Of a stretch of 54,475 nucleotides of DNA, positions 11,451-53,790 are shown piece after piece. Below the pieces are notes generated by a model. That model was given only the letters and a program-made list of their open reading frames with translations. It was not told the origin of the DNA and ran no database searches. How positions within the stretch are numbered: the stretch's first letter is position 1; every line of letters begins with the position of its first letter. The stretch spans positions 1-54,475 of the forward strand of contig JAFTNZ010000026.1 of NCBI GenBank assembly GCA_017451645.1, read 5' to 3'. This DNA comes from Bacteroidaceae bacterium. Lineage in GTDB: Bacteria > Bacteroidota > Bacteroidia > Bacteroidales > Bacteroidaceae. Position numbers and translations under genes: made by a program.

Positions 11451-12970
11451 TTTTTGATGATTTTTCTAATTTTGTTCGTAATGAATTCCTTTTCCTCTTT
11501 ATCCAATCCGAAGGTATATGTCAATAATACAGAGGAAAGAAGAGAAAGCGATACTATCAGGATGAAGTTCCACCAATTGGTGCTCACGTTGCAATAAAGA
11601 AGGAACGGGGGGATAAATGCCAACACACAGATTACCGCTACACGCAATGTGACCTGCCTGATGAATGACATAACAGGCAATCCAATGGACTTCTTTAGTA
11701 ACAGCAACCGTGTAAAATGGCAGATTACGGCCATCACGAGACCGACTACCATTGCTGAATAAGGAGGGAAGCCCATTTTTAATATAATGTATGCTATCGG
11801 AAGGGTGAGCAGTGAAATTCCTCCCACTACTATCTGGTAATCGCGGACTTTTCCGGATGCGTGCATAGAAGCAATCAACGTACCTGACAGAGAATCAACA
11901 ATGGAAGTTAGCAACACCAGTCGGAGGAATATTACCGTATTGTCTGGCACCTCTTTAAGCCAAACATTCAGTACAAATGGAGCTTCAATAATGATTGGTA
12001 TAGCCAAAGTCATAATCATCAGGAACGAGAGACGGCTTCCACGGAAAACCAACTTGAACATATTTTCTCGTTCATTCGCGGCATAGGACTTCACTATTTG
12101 CGGATTCATGGCCAACTGAAAGTTGCTCACAAAACCACTCATTGCATGAAGTACTTGATAAGCTATTGCTCGGGCCGCATTTACCGCTGCACCAAAAAAT
12201 ATATTCAACAGCACATTGATGCCTTGCTCCTTAGCTATCATTGCTAGAGAACCTATCAAATTCCAACTGACAAATGACATCATATTTTTTCCATGCCTAC
12301 GGTTCCATCCCCAATTGCAGCGACATTCTGTAAAATGTCTATTACAATAGACTCCATAAATAATGCGAATCAATATGGCCATAGTCGCCAACAATGCTGC
12401 ATAGAAAATCAATTGGTCAATAGGTGACACCAACAACAGGTAAACAATTATCAGTTTCAGTACGACTTCTATAATGCTAACATAGGCAAATGCCTTCATG
12501 TGTTCGTAAGCCACAATGGCAGCATTGTATGGAACACTGATGATGTTAACTATAAAAGTCAATAACGAGAACTGGAATACCCAATTGGCTGCAACATACC
12601 TGTCAGAGGGAAAATTCATATAATTGTTCAAGAACCATATACCGACCGTTTCCCCTAAAATTAGAATAATAACAGCGAGCAATAGATGAATCATTACAGC
12701 TGTAGTAAACATGGACTTGATATCGCCATTTTGCTTACCTATTTCAAAAGAGAGAAAACGTTGTGTGGCGGTCGTCATTGCTCCGCTTATCACTGCAAAC
12801 ATAGAGACAAAACCACCTACAACATTGTAAATGCCAAAATTTGTTTCACCCAATACTTCCAATACAACACGCGATGTGTAAAGGCTTATTGCCATAGTAA
12901 GAAGCATACGGAAGTAGAGCAAGAGGGTATTCTTGGCTATACGCTTGTTATTTGATGATGATTCAGGCAT
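11447..12970 (-). CDS. Wzx-like polysaccharide flippase (MATE/MOP superfamily)
   Basis: The protein has 507 aa from ATG 12968-12970; the open frame could begin at a TTG two codons earlier. It shows about 12-14 hydrophobic helices and begins with the soluble tail NNKRIAKNTLLLYFRMLLTMAISLYTSRVVLEVLG, characteristic of Bacteroides capsule flippases. It would move undecaprenyl-linked repeat units across the inner membrane before Wzy polymerisation. It is the first gene of the intact capsule operon. The 493 bp upstream hold no gene, so the operon promoter may lie there or transcription may arrive from upxY through the accessory block. Confidence 0.88.
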   Translation of the reverse strand: MPESSSNNKRIAKNTLLLYFRMLLTMAISLYTSRVVLEVLGETNFGIYNVVGGFVSMFAVISGAMTTATQRFLSFEIGKQNGDIKSMFTTAVMIHLLLAVIILILGETVGIWFLNNYMNFPSDRYVAANWVFQFSLLTFIVNIISVPYNAAIVAYEHMKAFAYVSIIEVVLKLIIVYLLLVSPIDQLIFYAALLATMAILIRIIYGVYCNRHFTECRCNWGWNRRHGKNMMSFVSWNLIGSLAMIAKEQGINVLLNIFFGAAVNAARAIAYQVLHAMSGFVSNFQLAMNPQIVKSYAANERENMFKLVFRGSRLSFLMIMTLAIPIIIEAPFVLNVWLKEVPDNTVIFLRLVLLTSIVDSLSGTLIASMHASGKVRDYQIVVGGISLLTLPIAYIILKMGFPPYSAMVVGLVMAVICHFTRLLLLKKSIGLPVMSFIRQVTLRVAVICVLAFIPPFLLYCNVSTNWWNFILIVSLSLLSSVLLTYTFGLDKEEKEFITNKIRKIIKK

Positions 12971-45265: not shown

Positions 45266-48200
45266 ATGAAACATTATCATCTATTCCTCTCGGCGGCTTT
45301 GCTGATGTGTGAAGCCTTGCCGACAGTTGCACAGAGCAACAACAATCAAGACGAAGTGGTAAAAATCGAACGCCATACCCGGCGTGCCTATCGCGAGGGT
45401 GAGGTGTTGGTGAAGTTCAAGGCCGGCAGCAGCATTGTTCAGAGCGGTGCCCGCAGTGTCAATGCCGGTGGTGTGAGCAGTGTGCTCAGCTCATTGGGTG
45501 TGTCGGAAATGGAGCCGCTGATGCCCCTTATTGGCGAAACGCAGAAGCAGACGGGGGCGCGTGCCCTTTCGGGAAAGCCCGTCAACGATATGGACCTCAC
45601 GACACTCTACCGTGTGCACTTCGATGCTGCAAAGATTCCTTCGGTGCATACAGCCATTGAGAAAATGAAGGGGTTGGACGAGGTGGAGTTTGCCGAGCCT
45701 AACTACCTGGTGTATGCCCTTTCGGACGAGGGTACTGCGGTGACCGACTATGATACCTATTGCCGGGAACCTCTCTACAACCAGCAGTGGGGGCACCATC
45801 CCTTGAAGATGCCCTTCCTGTGGCAACAACCCAAGCTTTCGGACAAGCGTCCGGTGATTGCCATCCTCGATACGGGTGTGGACATCACCCATCCCGACCT
45901 CGTGGACAACATCTGGACAAACACCCTTGAGGCTGAAGGCGAAGAGGAGGCTGACGATGACAACAACGGCTTTGCCGACGACCTTCACGGATGGGATTTC
46001 GTGAACCAAACGGGTCGCATAGGCGACTGGAACGGTCACGGTACACACTGTGCCGGTATTGCTGCTGCCGTAGGCGACAACGGCATCGGTATTGCCGGTG
46101 CAAACCCCGATGCTTTGATTATGCCCATCACCGTGATGCAGAGTGACGGTACGGGAGACGTGGCCACCATCATCAAGGGTATCGACTATGCCGTAGCCAA
46201 CGGAGCCGATGTCCTGAGCATGAGCTTTGGCGGATACAGCTACTCATTGGCCGAAGAGCAGGCATTGGCAAAGGCTTATCAGAAAGCGGTGTTGGTGGCT
46301 GCAGCGGGTAACGATTGTACCCCGATAAACCCCAACGTCCAGTGTGACGTATGCAAGAAATGGGGTGCTCCCATGTTTCCTGCCGCCTTCACCTTCGTGT
46401 TGGGTGTAGAGGCATCGCCCAACGGTGGCGGACGCTCCGTCTTCAGCAACTACGATGACGACGGACCAACCTTCTCTACCTTTGGCGAAGATAAACTCTA
46501 CAACTACGAACTTCGCGCACCGGGTTCTGCCATCATGAGTACCTATCCCGGTGGTAAGTACAAGGCTTTGAACGGCACCTCCATGGCGTGTCCTTTTGTG
46601 GCAGGTGGCGTATCCCGCCTGCTCCAGACCAAAGAGTACAGCAGTTGGGAGGTGCTCTTTGGTGACCTTATCCATACGCGCAAGCAGAACGGCTACGGCG
46701 ATGTCGATTTCGAAGCGGCTTACCGGCTTACCGATGCCGATCGCATCCCCGAGCTTGGCTTGGTCACCTACCTGTTGAAAGATACCATCGTGGGCGATGC
46801 TGACGGTCGTCCCGATGCGGGAGAGACCATTGCTCTCTATCCTACGCTTCGCAACGAGTGGGGACAGGCAACAAACGTCACCTTCTCTTTGGAGGTGGCA
46901 GAGAACGAAGACCCCACCATCGTGGAAATTCTCGACGAAAGTGTAGCTTTCGGCAAGTCACTCAGCAGCTACGGCAAAAACATCAGTGCCAACCCCGTTC
47001 GTTTCAAAGTGAACGATGATTGTGCGGATGGCAGAAAGATACGTTTGGTATTGAAAGCAACGTGCGACAACATTGCCGAAGAGTTGGCGCATGAGTTTAC
47101 CATTGAAGTGGAAAATGGTGTGGAGATTGGAGGGCTGGTAACGGAAGATATGACGCTTTATCCGGGGGTGAATTACATTGTAACATCTACAATCTTGGTT
47201 CGTGATACGGCTGTTCTTACAATACTTCCGGGAACAACACTCGCATTTAAAGGAAAAGCATCAATAGGAACATATGGTGGCGGTAAGGTAATTTGTAAAG
47301 GTGAGCCAGGAAATAGTATTTTTATAACATCGGCTAACGCGGAAGCTCGTATTGAAGAATTTTCCTTTGGAAATGACACTGTAGAATACGTTGTTTTTGA
47401 GAATTTGTTTCCAGATTATTGTCTTTTTAGCGGTTCTTCTTATTTTGAAAACTGTGTGTTTAGAAATATAAAAGGTTTTGGTTCGGTTGATCGTTTGTTT
47501 TTAGCTGGAGGTAATATCGTCTATAGTAATATTTATGATTTGTACAACTTTGATCCTCATATAGAAAACAACTGTTTTTGTAACAATATAGTAAATGCAT
47601 ATAAGGTTGCAGGTGTTTCTGAAAACATAAATAATTGTAATGTATTTAATAATACTAATGAACGTGATCAGATTCAGAATGTAAATTACTATAGTCAGTA
47701 TTATAGTGTGTGTGATGCTATGCCGAATTATTTTGGTTCCTCAAAAGAGGAAACAGTACGTATGAGTATATATGATGCTTATCATCCTATCGAACCTACT
47801 GGCACTGGAGTTTATGAGTTTTCTAATATGCTCACTTGCCCATCAGCCGAAACTCATGCCATCGTTTGGAAAGTGGTGGTAAATGGTTACGATGCACAAG
47901 ATGAATTTGATTTGCTTCCTCCTCTTGGTGTCGGCAAACATAAGTTTGAAGTATATTTCAACCGTCCGATGGATACCTCCTTTACTCCAACGATAGCAAT
48001 GGGAGTACGTCCCCCTTATACACAACATATGATAGCAGAAGAGGGTAGTTGGAATGAAGACAGAACGATTTATACAGCCTATCTGACAATTACTGGCAAA
48101 ATGAATGCTGATGGTATTAATCGTATTTATGTAGCAGATGCAGTGGAATCTTTAGAGGATTACTATCTGCGTAAGGAATTGTTGCAACTTTCACAAAAGG

Positions 48201-50107
48201 GCAATTCTTTATTACAAAATGTCGCAAATGTTTCAGGAAAAGTGTTATTTCAGACATCAGATGCATCAAAAGAGGGATATTTGAGTTCGTCCATGAGTAC
48301 TAGTCTTGGGTATTTATTTAATGGTTCTTATAACAACTTTGTGAATTTCCCAGATAATGGTTATTTACAAGTAGATTTGGGAGAATATAAAGAAGCACGT
48401 TTAATCAGCTTTAATTATGATATATATGGTAGTTATTCTCCTAATGAAATCATCGTCCAAGGAAGTAATGATGGTATAACGTTTAATAACGTAAATATCT
48501 TGTCATCTTTTGATGAAATAAATCCTTTACCAGGTAGTTATAGTGGTTCTTTTAGTTCATTTCCTATTGATGCAGGAACTTCCTATCGTTATTATCGTTT
48601 TGTGTTTTCAGCAAAAAATAATAGAGAATCATTAATATCAGAATTTGGTATGGAGGTTTTAGATCCGAAGATAAAAGATGATTATAAGACTTTGACTTCT
48701 GATGATGAAATTATTGAAATCCAAAAAGAAAAAGTTTCGGCAGATGTACTGTCTAAATCAATGAGTAGAGATTGTACCCTATTACAAGAAACATTGGATA
48801 ATATGTATGCTGGCTATAATAAACTTGCGACCATTTTGGGAGAACCACTGATAGAGCAAGTTCCTGTAGAGGTTTCTTCTGCACCGGAGTGGGTAATTCC
48901 TGTAGAAAATATGCGTTTCAATGTACAAGTAGCTGCTGCCGGCAGCATGAGTACCGGCTTGATGGCAGAAGCCGGATTGGGTAAGGTCTCTCTCACTTGG
49001 GAAACCGATGAGGAGGATTTTGAAGATTTGTTGGGATACAACATCATGCGTTATACGGAAGTAGAAGATTCTGCAAGGGTAAAGGACTACAGTAAATACG
49101 GCGACTATGCTTATCATTGGGAATATTTTACGCGAATGGACACTGTCATCATCAACCCCACCGTCATCGCCTCCGAAGAGACTGCTTACACCGACTACGA
49201 TGTAGTGCCCGGCACAACCTACTACTACGTCATCAAGCAGTTGACCACTTCATTGAGCAGTCATGACCTGAGCAATGCCGTAGCCGCCACTCCGCTCACC
49301 GCACAGAAGGGCGATGCCAACGGAAGCATGGCGGTGGATGTGGCAGACGTGGTGACAGAGATTGCTTACATGACCAACCAAGACCCGCAACCCTTCATCT
49401 TCGAAGCTGCCGATGTGAACAGCGACCTCGCCGTGAACATCCTTGATGTGGTGGGTACGCTCAACATCATCCTTACACCTGCAGAAACCGGCATTGCTTC
49501 GGTAAACAATACGGCTACCTATACCGTGGAGGACGGTATCCTCTATGTGGAGAGTCCCGTGGCATTAGGTGGTGTGCAGGTGCGCATTGCCGCTCCCAAG
49601 GGTACCGAGTTTACCGCCCTGGAAGGCTTGAACGGCTTTGAACAGACCGGCAACTGGCAGAGCGAGGATGAATACCTCTTCCTGGCTTACTCCATGGTGG
49701 GACGCACCATTGCTCCCGGTAAGCAGGCATTGTTCCGTATCGGAGAAGATGTAGTCATCAGCCAAGTGGTATTGAGCGATGCACGCGGCAAGAATGTGTT
49801 GGCCATCAACGGAGATGCCACCGGCGTGGGTGTGGTAGAGGGCATGCAGATGACTTTGCCTTATCCCAACCCCTTCAGCACCGAGCTGCACATACCTTAT
49901 ATAATAGGTAAGGAAGGAAACCATCAGGTAGCCATCGTCATCAGCGACCTCGCCGGACGCACCGTATATAACTACCGCACCGAATGCGACTATGGCGAGC
50001 ATAGCCACACCTGGCATCCTGCCGGAAACCTGGCCAACGGTCTCTATCTGGTGAGCCTCTATGTGGATGGCACGCTGATGCATACGGCAAAGGCGTTAAA
50101 GAATTAG
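45266..50107 (+). CDS. secreted multidomain subtilisin-like (S8) protease with discoidin-like, dockerin and T9SS domains
   Basis: This 1613-aa protein has a signal peptide (about residues 1-22) and a prodomain to about residue 150 (YREGEVLVKFKAG..VEFAEPNYLVYAL). The S8 catalytic domain has Asp202 (AILDTGVD), His258 (NGHGTH), Asn349 (AAAGND) and Ser439 (NGTSMACP), so it should be active. A beta-sandwich follows; from about residue 625 comes a beta-helix-like stretch, then a discoidin-like domain (about 990-1130), an FN3-like segment, a dockerin (about 1349-1407) with two GDANGSMAVDVAD / ADVNSDLAVNILD loops, a cohesin-like segment, and a T9SS tail (1527-1613, YPNPFS start). The stretch from roughly 47150 to 48900 is far more AT-rich than the rest, suggesting domain replacement. 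It starts a gene set with two cohesin proteins. Confidence 0.88.
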   Translation: MKHYHLFLSAALLMCEALPTVAQSNNNQDEVVKIERHTRRAYREGEVLVKFKAGSSIVQSGARSVNAGGVSSVLSSLGVSEMEPLMPLIGETQKQTGARALSGKPVNDMDLTTLYRVHFDAAKIPSVHTAIEKMKGLDEVEFAEPNYLVYALSDEGTAVTDYDTYCREPLYNQQWGHHPLKMPFLWQQPKLSDKRPVIAILDTGVDITHPDLVDNIWTNTLEAEGEEEADDDNNGFADDLHGWDFVNQTGRIGDWNGHGTHCAGIAAAVGDNGIGIAGANPDALIMPITVMQSDGTGDVATIIKGIDYAVANGADVLSMSFGGYSYSLAEEQALAKAYQKAVLVAAAGNDCTPINPNVQCDVCKKWGAPMFPAAFTFVLGVEASPNGGGRSVFSNYDDDGPTFSTFGEDKLYNYELRAPGSAIMSTYPGGKYKALNGTSMACPFVAGGVSRLLQTKEYSSWEVLFGDLIHTRKQNGYGDVDFEAAYRLTDADRIPELGLVTYLLKDTIVGDADGRPDAGETIALYPTLRNEWGQATNVTFSLEVAENEDPTIVEILDESVAFGKSLSSYGKNISANPVRFKVNDDCADGRKIRLVLKATCDNIAEELAHEFTIEVENGVEIGGLVTEDMTLYPGVNYIVTSTILVRDTAVLTILPGTTLAFKGKASIGTYGGGKVICKGEPGNSIFITSANAEARIEEFSFGNDTVEYVVFENLFPDYCLFSGSSYFENCVFRNIKGFGSVDRLFLAGGNIVYSNIYDLYNFDPHIENNCFCNNIVNAYKVAGVSENINNCNVFNNTNERDQIQNVNYYSQYYSVCDAMPNYFGSSKEETVRMSIYDAYHPIEPTGTGVYEFSNMLTCPSAETHAIVWKVVVNGYDAQDEFDLLPPLGVGKHKFEVYFNRPMDTSFTPTIAMGVRPPYTQHMIAEEGSWNEDRTIYTAYLTITGKMNADGINRIYVADAVESLEDYYLRKELLQLSQKGNSLLQNVANVSGKVLFQTSDASKEGYLSSSMSTSLGYLFNGSYNNFVNFPDNGYLQVDLGEYKEARLISFNYDIYGSYSPNEIIVQGSNDGITFNNVNILSSFDEINPLPGSYSGSFSSFPIDAGTSYRYYRFVFSAKNNRESLISEFGMEVLDPKIKDDYKTLTSDDEIIEIQKEKVSADVLSKSMSRDCTLLQETLDNMYAGYNKLATILGEPLIEQVPVEVSSAPEWVIPVENMRFNVQVAAAGSMSTGLMAEAGLGKVSLTWETDEEDFEDLLGYNIMRYTEVEDSARVKDYSKYGDYAYHWEYFTRMDTVIINPTVIASEETAYTDYDVVPGTTYYYVIKQLTTSLSSHDLSNAVAATPLTAQKGDANGSMAVDVADVVTEIAYMTNQDPQPFIFEAADVNSDLAVNILDVVGTLNIILTPAETGIASVNNTATYTVEDGILYVESPVALGGVQVRIAAPKGTEFTALEGLNGFEQTGNWQSEDEYLFLAYSMVGRTIAPGKQALFRIGEDVVISQVVLSDARGKNVLAINGDATGVGVVEGMQMTLPYPNPFSTELHIPYIIGKEGNHQVAIVISDLAGRTVYNYRTECDYGEHSHTWHPAGNLANGLYLVSLYVDGTLMHTAKALKN

Positions 50108-50117
50108 TGCTTATAGG

Positions 50118-50192
50118 CACGGATTGCACGGATTACACGGTTTTATCGATGGTTTCTCGACCAAGAAAGATGCCGTGGAATCCGTGTGATCC
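50118..50192. repeat. CACGGATT palindromic repeat between protease and scaffold genes
   Basis: CACGGATT occurs twice in tandem (50118-50125, 50128-50135), and its complement AATCCGTG occurs at 50179-50186, so the spacer can fold back. This may be a terminator or a dispersed repeat of the Bacteroidales chromosome. Confidence 0.5.
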
Positions 50193-50216
50193 ATGCTCAA
50201 AAGAATAAACGAAACA

Positions 50217-52256
50217 ATGAAACAACTGACTATATGCTGCCTCCTGCTCCTCTCTATCATCGGAGCAAGGGCAGAAAACGTGATAAGCCTGTCATCCGCC
50301 GCCGGACATCCCGGCGATGAGGTGACGGTGGAGGTGGGATTGACCATGACCAATGCGGTGACAGCTGCTGAAATCATCATCCCATTAGACAAGCAGCTAA
50401 CCTATGTAGTGGGAAGTGCCACGCTGAACAGTGCACGTGCCGACGGACACGAACTGTCGGCTGCGGTGGTAGATGGCAATTTGCGCCTCTATGTCTATAG
50501 CCTTTCCCTTGCCTCCCTGAAAGGGGAGGAGGGAGCCTTGGCTACCTTCAAACTGAAGTTGAAGAAAGAGCCGACCGACTATCTGCTCACTCCCCAAGTG
50601 ATGCTGAGCGATGCGGCAGGAAACTCCCTTTCTGCTACAACAGGGTCGGGGACCGTCACCCTCTTGTCTCCCAAACTCTCAGTGGTGACTCCCACGATAG
50701 ACTACGGCCACATCCCTATCCGAAGCACTTATACCCAGACACTCACCTTGCAAAACATCGGAAACGAGGTGCTGGAGGTGACGGAGGTGGCATTCAGTGC
50801 TGCTGAATTTTTCTCAGACGAGGAAAATATTTCTCTCCAACCCGGCGAAAACAGATCGCTCACTATCTCCTACGCTCCGACTGTGCGTGGGGCGATTGAG
50901 GAGACGGTATCTATAACCAGCAATGCCATCAACGGCATACAGAAAGTCACCCTCGTGGCTGACCCCTTTTCGGTGAACGAACTGCATGTCGAGGGCACCT
51001 CGGGCAATTCAGACACTGAAGTGGAGATAGCCCTGCGCGTCAACAATATGGAGCCGCTGGTGGGGATGCAGTGCAGCTTCGCCTTGCCCGAGGCCTTGGA
51101 GTATGTTGAAGGGAGCTTCACTGCGGCGGAGAGAAGCTCTTCTCATACCGCTGCAGGAAGTTTTGCCAACGGAAAGTTGACGCTCTTCCTCTACTCTTCA
51201 ATCAATACCACCTTTACGGGAGACGATGGAGTGATAGCCACCTTCAAACTGAAGCTCGATGGTAAGAGCGGCACTTATACACTCACTCCCGAAGGCGTAG
51301 TACTCAGCAACATTACGGTAGAGAACATGACTTCGGCCACCTCTTCGGGCAGTGTGGTTATCTATAGCCCTGCGCTGAGCAGCAATGCTACGTTGGATAT
51401 GGGAAGCACACCGGTGACCGCTCCGCTGACGACTGGCTATACGGTCGCCAACTACGGTGCGGCTCCTTTGACTATCAGCAAAGTGACTTTCCTTGCCGGG
51501 GGATATACGGTGAATACACCGCTTCCTCTGGTCGTGGAGCCTTGGAAGAATGCTGCACTGGAAGTGGTATATACTCCTACTGAGGAGGGTAGTTTTCCTA
51601 CCACCATGAACATCTACACCAACGATCCCGTAAACCGGATGAAAGCTGTGGCCATAGAGGCTTCGGTGTATGAGCCTAACGGCCTCAATCTGTCGGGCAG
51701 TTGTGCATCCGATGGCACTTATCTGCTGACCGTGGGGATGGACAACTACACCGACATTGTGGCGGTGCAGATGGATATCCATTGGCTGGAAGGTATGACC
51801 ACTTCGCTTGATGCACTGGAAGCAGCCGTCCGCCTGCAAGGACATGGATGCACTGTGGCGGACATGGGCGGGGGCATCTATCGGGTTATTGTCTATTCAA
51901 TGAGCAACACACCCATTGCCGGCAACGAGGGGACTCTCTTTACCCTGGCATACACTCCTCAGGATGGAGTGGATTGCAATGCGACTACGGTGGAGGTCAA
52001 AGACATCATCCTGAGTGATGCCGGTGGAGCCAACTATGTATCCGAAGAAGGACCTTCGCTGGAGGTGGAGTATTGCTTGCCGGGTGATGTGAACGGTGAC
52101 GGACGCTTCTCGATAGTGGATGTCACCATGATAACGAACAGCATCCTGAAGAAAGAAAATGTGGGCTTCATCTCCGGAGCGGCAGACTTGAATGCTGATG
52201 GGCGTATCTCCATTGTAGATGCAACGATAACAACCAATCTCGTGTTGAAAAAGTAA
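50217..52256 (+). CDS. secreted scaffoldin-like protein: three cohesin-like domains and a C-terminal dockerin
   Basis: From ATG 50217 the protein has 679 aa with a signal peptide (MKQLTICCLLLLSIIGARAE). Three similar cohesin-like segments are visible. The first spans about 20-150 (ISLSSAAGHPGDEVTVEVGLTM...VMLSDAAGNSLSA), the second about 258-375 (GNSDTEVEIALRVNNMEPLVGMQCSF...VVLSNITVENM), and the third about 500-605 (YLLTVGMDNYTDIVAVQMDIHW...IILSDAGGANY). They are separated by ASH/choice-of-anchor-like domains that start TIDYGHIPI and TLDMGSTPV. The C-terminus is a dockerin with two calcium loops, DVNGDGRFSIVD and DLNADGRISIVD. It could bind the dockerin of the upstream protease and, through its own dockerin, another cohesin. 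Confidence 0.82.
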   Translation: MKQLTICCLLLLSIIGARAENVISLSSAAGHPGDEVTVEVGLTMTNAVTAAEIIIPLDKQLTYVVGSATLNSARADGHELSAAVVDGNLRLYVYSLSLASLKGEEGALATFKLKLKKEPTDYLLTPQVMLSDAAGNSLSATTGSGTVTLLSPKLSVVTPTIDYGHIPIRSTYTQTLTLQNIGNEVLEVTEVAFSAAEFFSDEENISLQPGENRSLTISYAPTVRGAIEETVSITSNAINGIQKVTLVADPFSVNELHVEGTSGNSDTEVEIALRVNNMEPLVGMQCSFALPEALEYVEGSFTAAERSSSHTAAGSFANGKLTLFLYSSINTTFTGDDGVIATFKLKLDGKSGTYTLTPEGVVLSNITVENMTSATSSGSVVIYSPALSSNATLDMGSTPVTAPLTTGYTVANYGAAPLTISKVTFLAGGYTVNTPLPLVVEPWKNAALEVVYTPTEEGSFPTTMNIYTNDPVNRMKAVAIEASVYEPNGLNLSGSCASDGTYLLTVGMDNYTDIVAVQMDIHWLEGMTTSLDALEAAVRLQGHGCTVADMGGGIYRVIVYSMSNTPIAGNEGTLFTLAYTPQDGVDCNATTVEVKDIILSDAGGANYVSEEGPSLEVEYCLPGDVNGDGRFSIVDVTMITNSILKKENVGFISGAADLNADGRISIVDATITTNLVLKK

Positions 52257-52296
52257 ATGTAGGACGAATATTATTTTTACATAAAACATAGACATT

Positions 52297-53529
52297 ATGA
52301 ATTTGAAAAAACTTTTATTGGCATTGTCCTGCCTGGCTGTTCTTCCGGTTTATCCCCAGGCTACTCTGACAATGGATGATTTTTCGATAATGCCCGGCGA
52401 GTCGCGTCAGGTCACTATCGATATGACGAATACAGTTCCCATTCGTGCCTTCCAGGTGCAAGTGGTCTTCCCTGAGGGAGTGACCATGGCCAGTCGTCCG
52501 ACCGTAGTGGCTGACCGTCAGGGAAGCTATGAGGATGAGTTCGGCGAAACAGTGCAGTGCACCAAAACCCTTGGGTATAACAAATGGGAAGACGGCAGCT
52601 ACATGATAACGGTGAATGCTGACGATGCCATTCCCTTTTCGGGTACAGAAGGACCGGTGATTACCTTCAAGGTGAAAGCTGCTGATGATGCCCCTTTGGG
52701 CGAGAGTGTCATCACTTTGCAGGATATGGAACTTGTCTTCGAGAATGGCTACGACTATGTGCGCCCTGCAAGCAGTATCTGTCGGGTGACGGTTTATCAC
52801 ACCCATATTCCCGGTGACGACGGTGTCTGCACCCTGTGCGGCGAGCCGCTCGAACTTGTTATTGATGACAGTGGGGAGACTTGTGCCGACTTTGTTCCCG
52901 AATATACCACTTATGCCAAAGCTGCTTACAAGCGTGAGTTCGATACAGGATATACCTATAGCATGGTGTTGCTTCCGTTTGCTCCCGATGCCGGTAGCTT
53001 GAATAATTTCCGCTTCTATAGCATGAGTAGTGTCTCCGACAATGCCGTCACTTTTGTGGAAGAACCTTTCCCGGCTGCTAATACTCCATACCTCTGCTGC
53101 TTGCGTGAAGATGCCACGGTGACGGATGCCATCACCGGTGGGGTGACAACAGTTTCCACAGAACCCGTGACTGTGTCGTGCGGCACATGGCAATTCGTAG
53201 GCTCGTTTGTGAATGGGGAGATAGATTGCACACAGGATGCTACAACTTGCAACTACGTGTTCAATCCCGTACAGAACACCTTGCACCGTGTGACGAGAAC
53301 GTTGACTCTCTGTCCCTACAGTGCATACATCCGCAATGTGCTCGCCTCGCCGTCAGCGGTTTCCAACCTGCGGGTATATATCAGTCATCCTACAGGCATC
53401 AAGGAAATTTCCAAAGACGAGGTGACACCCTTCGTCACTGGTATGTACGACCTGCAGGGACGTCCTGTTTCCAAACCGATAGAGGGTCAAATTTACATCC
53501 GGAATGGAGTGAAAGAAATAAAAAAATAA
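52297..53529 (+). CDS. secreted cohesin-domain protein with T9SS-like tail
   Basis: This 410-aa protein has a signal peptide (MNLKKLLLALSCLAVLPVYPQ). The first domain (DFSIMPGESRQVTIDMTNTVPIRAFQVQVVFPEGV...GTEGPVITFKVKA..LQDMELVF) is cohesin-like. A short HTHIPGDDGVCTLCGEPLE linker follows, containing a CxxC. The second half is beta-rich. The last 30 residues (GMYDLQGRPVSKPIEGQIYIRNGVKEIKK) are a short T9SS-like or Por-type tail. It starts 40 bp after the scaffold gene. Its cohesin could receive the dockerin of the scaffold protein and hold the assembly on the surface, which is inference. Confidence 0.75.
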   Translation: MNLKKLLLALSCLAVLPVYPQATLTMDDFSIMPGESRQVTIDMTNTVPIRAFQVQVVFPEGVTMASRPTVVADRQGSYEDEFGETVQCTKTLGYNKWEDGSYMITVNADDAIPFSGTEGPVITFKVKAADDAPLGESVITLQDMELVFENGYDYVRPASSICRVTVYHTHIPGDDGVCTLCGEPLELVIDDSGETCADFVPEYTTYAKAAYKREFDTGYTYSMVLLPFAPDAGSLNNFRFYSMSSVSDNAVTFVEEPFPAANTPYLCCLREDATVTDAITGGVTTVSTEPVTVSCGTWQFVGSFVNGEIDCTQDATTCNYVFNPVQNTLHRVTRTLTLCPYSAYIRNVLASPSAVSNLRVYISHPTGIKEISKDEVTPFVTGMYDLQGRPVSKPIEGQIYIRNGVKEIKK

Positions 53530-53555
53530 ATTGAGAATAATTGTAACACTATATT

Positions 53556-53717
53556 ATGGAAAAAAGTAACCAATATGTAGCACCTGATGTGTGTGTCGTG
53601 GAATGTCTGGTAGAAAAAGGTTATGCCTTGTCAGGGGTGGAAGACCCCATGACCATCGGTATCGGTGATGAGGTGGAGACCGCCTCTACCAAAAACTGGT
53701 GGTATAACGGCAAGTGA
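53556..53717 (+). CDS. 53-aa Cys- and Trp-containing peptide closing the protease/cohesin gene set
   Basis: The short reading frame runs from ATG 53556 to TGA 53717, 26 bp after the cohesin gene and just before a strong terminator. It begins MEKSNQYVAPDVCVVECLVEKGYALSG and ends in a Trp-Trp-Tyr motif (NWWYNGK). The pattern 'Y-x-A/P-x...V-V-E...G-Y/F-A-x-S-G' recurs in small unannotated Bacteroidales proteins beside secreted protein genes. There is no signal peptide. It has two cysteines (Cys13, Cys17). Function is unknown; a peptide substrate, signal or chaperone for the neighbouring surface proteins is possible. Confidence 0.65.
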   Translation: MEKSNQYVAPDVCVVECLVEKGYALSGVEDPMTIGIGDEVETASTKNWWYNGK

Positions 53718-53744: not shown

Positions 53745-53790
53745 GCAGCAGGCTGCCTCTCCGTTCGCAGCCTGCTGCTTCATTTTTCTT
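53745..53790 (+). terminator. strong intrinsic terminator after the 53-aa gene
   Basis: A perfect 12-bp stem joins GCAGCAGGCTGC (53745-53756) and GCAGCCTGCTGC (53767-53778). It has a 10-nt loop and is followed by a T-rich tract with five consecutive T. Confidence 0.85.

Follow-up and report, generated by a model that had tools for sequence, protein, structure and literature searches.

The window, as we call the whole stretch of DNA analysed (54,475 nucleotides from a Bacteroidaceae bacterium), contains a set of four open reading frames on a single strand with a strong terminator at their end, just where the sequence-only reading had placed them. They encode an S8 protease, a cohesin scaffold, a third protein with a cohesin and a small peptide, with the following features.

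45266..50107, + strand: S8 (subtilisin-like) protease gene, 1613 aa, signal peptide by eye
45845..46711, + strand: Peptidase_S8 catalytic domain, aa 194-482 (PF00082, E 6.5e-45)
48146..48895, + strand: insert, aa 961-1210, weakly discoidin-like (F5/F8 type C; PF22633, E 0.046, below cut-off)
49301..49480, + strand: protease dockerin, aa 1346-1405, two calcium loops (PF00404, 24.8 bits; own-built HMM)
49481..49840, + strand: cohesin-like domain COHp, 3' of the protease dockerin (hhalign)
49862..50074, + strand: T9SS type A sorting tail of the protease, aa 1533-1603 (TIGR04183, 23.8 bits, cut-off 23)
50193..52256, + strand: scaffold gene, 687 aa (domain scan)
50274..50666, + strand: cohesin COH1
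50667..50963, + strand: ASH/HYDIN-type Ig linker 1 (ASH1)
50964..51368, + strand: cohesin COH2
51369..51665, + strand: ASH/HYDIN-type Ig linker 2 (ASH2; same Pfam families as linker 1, hhalign 99.4% to it)
51666..52073, + strand: cohesin COH3 (hhalign 99.5% to COH1 and COH2, 99.2% to COH4)
52074..52253, + strand: scaffold C-terminal dockerin (PF00404, 39.5 bits; 44.3 bits in the genome search)
52297..53529, + strand: third gene, 410 aa, with a cohesin, a variable middle and a short tail
52354..52806, + strand: cohesin COH4, aa 20-170
53449..53526, + strand: short tail of GQIYIRNGVKEIKK type, taken as sorting-tail-like (pattern match)
53556..53717, + strand: 53-aa ORF (by eye, a similar 59-aa ORF occupies the same place, 12379-12558, in the nearest relative, L092)
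53745..53778, + strand: intrinsic terminator stem-loop, then a T-rich run

Searches with Pfam and NCBIfam models bore out the protease as it had been described, with an intact catalytic set, a dockerin and a T9SS tail, the tail scoring 23.4 bits against Pfam Por_Secre_tail (PF18962), below the cut-off of 27. The cohesin and dockerin calls were upheld as well, and the cohesin-like segments did not turn out to be unrelated Ig domains. COH1, COH2 and COH4 have the cohesin fold (PF00963 family), and the profiles of COH1 and COH4 match PDB chains; in the COH4 search an integrin (E 0.0056) and LM2379 (0.0066) rank amid the cohesins. COH3, COHp and the dockerins gave no separate fold matches, in a kind of search that may overlook individual domains within a long model; the AlphaFold model of the long chain has a pTM of 0.42. 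For the third protein, the cohesin stood, but the T9SS-like tail did not as far as the tail models of Pfam and NCBIfam are concerned, since they gave no match and the resemblance is one of pattern only. The 53-aa ORF and the terminator do close the set. Beyond what had been described, Ig linkers of ASH/HYDIN type separate the scaffold cohesins, giving the order COH1-ASH1-COH2-ASH2-COH3-dockerin. No sorting tail was seen on the window scaffold, and no carbohydrate-binding module was found on it among the 13 Pfam families listed. The earlier observation is confirmed as real, and the interpretation attached to it is partly supported by the results below.

In a Pfam profile search of the own genome, which is 72.6% complete and whose COH4 the Pfam cohesin model misses, one cohesin place (this scaffold) and two dockerin places (the protease and the scaffold) exceeded the cut-off; because of that incompleteness, further dockerins or cohesins may be absent from view. 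Contigs C34, C9 and C2 gave three weak dockerin matches, which were rejected, the ORFs being read by eye as SusC-like outer-membrane proteins. Both components of the T9SS machinery that we checked are encoded in the genome, namely SprA (2838.6 bits) and the PorU sortase (1037.4 bits).

Conservation of the gene order, which the sequence-only reading had offered as a check, was found in related loci. Our sample comprised 81 loci (the window and the best 80 of 85 confirmed relatives), which are not independent, as there are near-identical pairs, L150 equals L151 in the scaffold core, and a single genome can contribute more than one copy (L095-L097). They come mostly from metagenome-assembled genomes (MAGs) titled Bacteroidales or its families, many of them from ruminant gut; L119, the sole record among the 80 relatives titled Clostridium sp., is probably a mislabelled MAG. 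In 75 of the 81 loci the protease gene precedes the scaffold gene at a distance within 1500 nt, the largest gap being 683 nt. Five more loci have it elsewhere: upstream and missed by the filter in L138 and L160, upstream with an ORF between in L135, and downstream in L126 and L171. The remaining locus, L143, starts inside the scaffold. The catalytic Asp, His, Asn and Ser (D/H/N/S) that mark an S8 subtilase are retained in 66 of 67 proteases, and the dockerin is present in 79 of 80 (74 of 75 within the filter and all five others), the exception being a 126-aa fragment at a contig end. The insert of about 250 aa is a gap in all five orthologues aligned; by eye, a G200 scaffold (L078) has an insert resembling it.

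The distribution of the set is patchy. In searches of 201 family genomes that scored the best candidates only (up to 5 per genome for the scaffold and up to 9 for the third protein), a long scaffold match was obtained in 6 genomes including the own one and a long protease match in 8, and neither was present in 12 other same-genus genomes among those listed. The SIG119 genome has three copies of the set (L095, L096 and L097), each with a 217-aa cohesin-tail protein; these smallest third proteins contain little beyond the cohesin and the tail.

Taking these features together, we consider it fairly probable that the locus encodes a surface assembly in which a scaffold of cohesins displays an extracellular S8 protease and is itself held by the third protein. 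The protease dockerin would bind the scaffold encoded next to it, with COH1 and COH2 as the likeliest of its cohesins; if all three scaffold cohesins are bound by it, up to three proteases would be carried per scaffold. The tail-less scaffold would bind COH4 of the third protein through its C-terminal dockerin, and it is presumably the tail of the third protein that takes this protein through the T9SS to the surface and keeps it there. The substrate would be extracellular protein. Because it bears its own sorting tail, the protease does not depend on a scaffold for its retention at the surface and could sit there alone, in which case the scaffold may cluster rather than hold proteases.

We infer the protease-on-scaffold contact from the conserved neighbourhood, the near-universal and conserved protease dockerin, and the few other candidates in an incomplete genome. 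This dockerin is the most conserved module compared, with a mean pairwise identity of 0.69 over 31 shared loci; in the same loci the values are 0.52 for COH2, 0.48 for ASH1, 0.47 for COHp, 0.46 for COH1 and ASH2, 0.40 for the scaffold dockerin and 0.35 for COH3, and COH4 has 0.24 over 15 loci. Both calcium loops of a type I dockerin (PF00404) are present in all 74 protease dockerins and in 29 of 33 scaffold dockerins. At loop positions 10/11, which we take to be the recognition positions, the window protease dockerin has VA and IL, a combination found in 41 of 74 protease dockerins with small variations in the others, and the window scaffold dockerin has IV and IV (symmetric). Identical residues at these positions in both loops occur in none of the 74 protease dockerins versus 19 of the 29 scaffold dockerins with both loops present. 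In Ruminococcus flavefaciens, where the recognition positions are numbered 11 and 12, dual-binding dockerins are used for attachment to the cell surface and single-binding ones for bringing in the enzymes, according to the available part of PMC5301203. By analogy, we propose the same division of roles here: the conserved asymmetric dockerin would make the enzyme contact, and the variable, mostly symmetric one the anchoring contact.

The cohesin-like domain directly 3' of the protease dockerin means that this dockerin could also be held in cis. COHp is related to the other cohesins by hhalign (COH3 97.1%, COH2 92.1%, COH4 77.7%, COH1 67.2%) and comes after the dockerin both in the window and in the aligned orthologues where these are not cut. 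The same succession of dockerin and cohesin is seen in further proteins of the relatives, for example G146:C27, G162:C18 and G134:C53 (GH31-like by eye). COHp might thus bind the dockerin in cis or between two proteases, forming a stalk before the tail that makes no contact with the scaffold. We regard this arrangement as unlikely, as it leaves the three-cohesin scaffold as a conserved neighbour unexplained, and as COHp is the most remote cohesin by profile, with no PDB chain matched by its profile, unlike COH1 and COH4.

For the docking of the scaffold on the third protein, which the sequence-only reading had also suggested, co-occurrence across the loci and the finding of a similar pair together elsewhere provide support. 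A dockerin is the last module in 31 of the 71 complete scaffolds. Another 27 lack a dockerin but have a tail-like end, L104 combines an internal dockerin with a tail, and the other 12 show neither feature. The tail-like call here is a rough regular expression; by eye, some of the 27 are doubtful and several of the 12 look tail-like. In loci with at least 1300 nt downstream, a downstream cohesin gene (cohesin profile E under 0.1, tails by eye) was found for 19 of 28 dockerin-ended scaffolds versus 1 of 32 others (Fisher 5e-8), and the single exception among the 32, L104, is the scaffold that bears the internal dockerin.

We then counted the same association on a tree of 78 scaffold cores with the dockerin part excluded, a quick tree with some long branches. 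Of the 81 loci, 22 lie outside this count, with a scaffold cut or short or with under 1300 nt downstream; one of them, L143 (cut at its start, third gene present), is inside the 28-versus-32 comparison. In the 59 loci counted, 19 have a dockerin and a third gene, 10 a dockerin alone, none a third gene alone and 30 neither. Nine independent pairs on well-supported branches gave a median of 7 in agreement, 0 opposed and 2 without difference (p 0.016, range 0.008-0.031). L132 was scored without a dockerin, although by eye it ends in what resembles a degenerate dockerin; including it would add a dockerin without a third gene. Counting against anchoring, 10 of the 29 dockerin-bearing scaffolds on the tree are without an adjoining third gene, and their partner would therefore lie elsewhere.

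The scaffold carries both cohesin and dockerin modules, and might instead polymerise head to tail through its own dockerin, the third protein being a separate surface protein. COH3 is the scaffold cohesin closest to COH4, so that one dockerin might bind both. We hold such polymerisation to be quite improbable, because scaffolds without a dockerin are also without a third gene (0 of 30), though it is the cohesin core that defines the set, and because a similar dockerin and a similar COH4 stand together elsewhere. This second case is at G200:C90, where a 1332-aa protein with Big_2 and PA14 domains ends in a dockerin 60% identical to that of the window scaffold, with two genes 3' of it whose cohesins are 39% and 51% identical to the window COH4. 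Leaving aside the orthologous scaffolds for the dockerin and the own genome for COH4, this stretch has the highest identity to both among the matches scored in the 201 genomes. Among the dockerins compared, it ranks second at 57% after L092 at 92%, nearer than the other orthologous scaffolds, and its COH4 likewise ranks second, at 50% after 86%. Dockerin and COH4 therefore seem to have moved as a pair. The protease scaffold of G200 itself (L102) has no dockerin that we could see.

A more general objection to any binding is that the modules may be calcium-stabilised spacers or adhesive Ig domains that do not bind each other, in surface proteins that are merely co-regulated. Non-cellulosomal cohesin- and dockerin-like modules are said to occur in all domains of life, as Peer 2009 reportedly set out. 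We give this explanation little credence, as neither the association of the scaffold dockerin with a cohesin gene on the tree nor class-specific conserved residues at the presumed recognition positions are expected of spacers. Fourteen further dockerin loci of the relatives were found with our own HMM; in the eight whose neighbouring ORFs were checked, a cohesin adjoins in six (L084, L219, L222, L224, L225 and L228) and none was detected by profiles at L217 and L220. A group that includes Lentimicrobiaceae MAGs (L126, L133, L135, L162 and L171) has a scaffold without a dockerin and without a tail recognised by eye, although the tail regular expression accepts L133 and L135. In L126, L133, L162 and L171 the gene after the scaffold has a tail-like end and, by these profiles, no cohesin.

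Returning to the surface assembly with the third protein as its anchor, the tails deserve closer consideration. After the dockerin, orthologous proteases have a long end in 37 of 74 cases and a short end in 37 of 74, and their tails are of the long T9SS type, of the short GxYIxNGKK type, or LFIRLGDRTYDVMGTEIR-like (L118, L116 and others). This suggests that the sorting signals of orthologous proteases are interchangeable. The GQIYIRNGVKEIKK-type pattern is seen in the tails of third proteins and orthologous proteases alike. It is because the proteases end either way that we name the short tails sorting-like, and by analogy such a role is likely for the one on the third protein. In this protein, the last 228 residues (window 52843-53526) are 57-58% identical to the C-termini of two contig C34 proteins of the same genome (L085 5228-7324 and 7881-13745), a repeated C-terminal module. 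A bolder extension of the anchored assembly, which we offer as doubtful, is a Bacteroidales-wide, T9SS-anchored cohesin-dockerin machine dedicated to proteases, in which a dockerin replaces the sorting tail and the T9SS exports a folded non-covalent complex; the tail-less scaffold would then exit only in complex with a cohesin-tail protein.

The sequence-only reading had held that no system of such composition was described, which was too strong, since a prediction exists for Candidatus Stygibacter (Cloacimonadota; PMC8542988). In the sections of that paper available, a cohesin scaffoldin with a T9SS-type C-terminal domain is predicted to attach to the surface of its own cell, and dockerins are predicted on peptidases, there S8/S53 and C25. 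Unlike here, it is a single 3755-aa scaffoldin with carbohydrate-binding domains that also docks GH18 and GH57, and these sections do not mention a separate cohesin-tail anchor. Clostridium thermocellum dDoc_0689, as summarised in excerpts of a review (PMC12484212), is an S8 protease with a dockerin as well, but with a tandem double dockerin and in a clostridial cellulosome with many glycosidases; the excerpts mention no protease-scaffold operon. In an Acetivibrio mesophilus scaffoldin, an S8 peptidase-like domain and an adjoining cohesin-dockerin unit (FN3, Coh1-Doc1) are combined in one protein, which, in the portion available of PMC11557425, is a clostridial cellulosome scaffoldin with a galactose oxidase-like domain, known by prediction only. 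R. flavefaciens shares with our locus the symmetric dual-binding dockerins for attachment, the single-binding ones for enzymes and a peptidase dockerin, but there, by the available part of PMC5301203, the peptidase dockerin is in the surface-attachment group and the enzyme set for plant fibre is large. The Limousia mucinolysome (PMC12997984, available in part) resembles our locus in having dockerin-bearing peptidases, and scaffoldins with C-terminal dockerins whose predicted partner is a separate anchoring scaffoldin, whereas its anchor has a cell-wall sortase motif and its enzymes are mucin-glycan glycosidases. The same excerpts report 78 Bacteroidetes MAGs with both cohesin and dockerin modules and call for further investigation.

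Our locus would work much like a small cellulosome, yet it is not one by two features, the glycosidase and the carbohydrate-binding module. In the 72.6%-complete own genome, no dockerin-bearing glycosidase exceeded the cut-off, and only the protease and the scaffold carry dockerins. Among the literature matches listed, judged by title or the start of the abstract, no protease-scaffold set in Bacteroidales was found, and what seems to be new is a conserved Bacteroidales operon that combines protease, scaffold and anchor and has two classes of dockerin. Cohesin and dockerin parts had been noticed before in the Bacteroidota phylum without an explanation; this locus offers a small and conserved case in which the candidate partners can be named: one dockerin on the enzyme, three cohesins on the scaffold and one pair for anchoring. 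It is centred on a protease rather than on glycosidases, and on Gram-negative secretion. If it is true that a dockerin stands in for a sorting tail, this would give new insight into the cargo that the T9SS can export. Part of the system is testable in culture because Prevotella sp. P6B1 (L163), which we take to be a rumen isolate and whose record is not labelled as a MAG, carries a dockerin-bearing protease together with a self-tailed scaffold.
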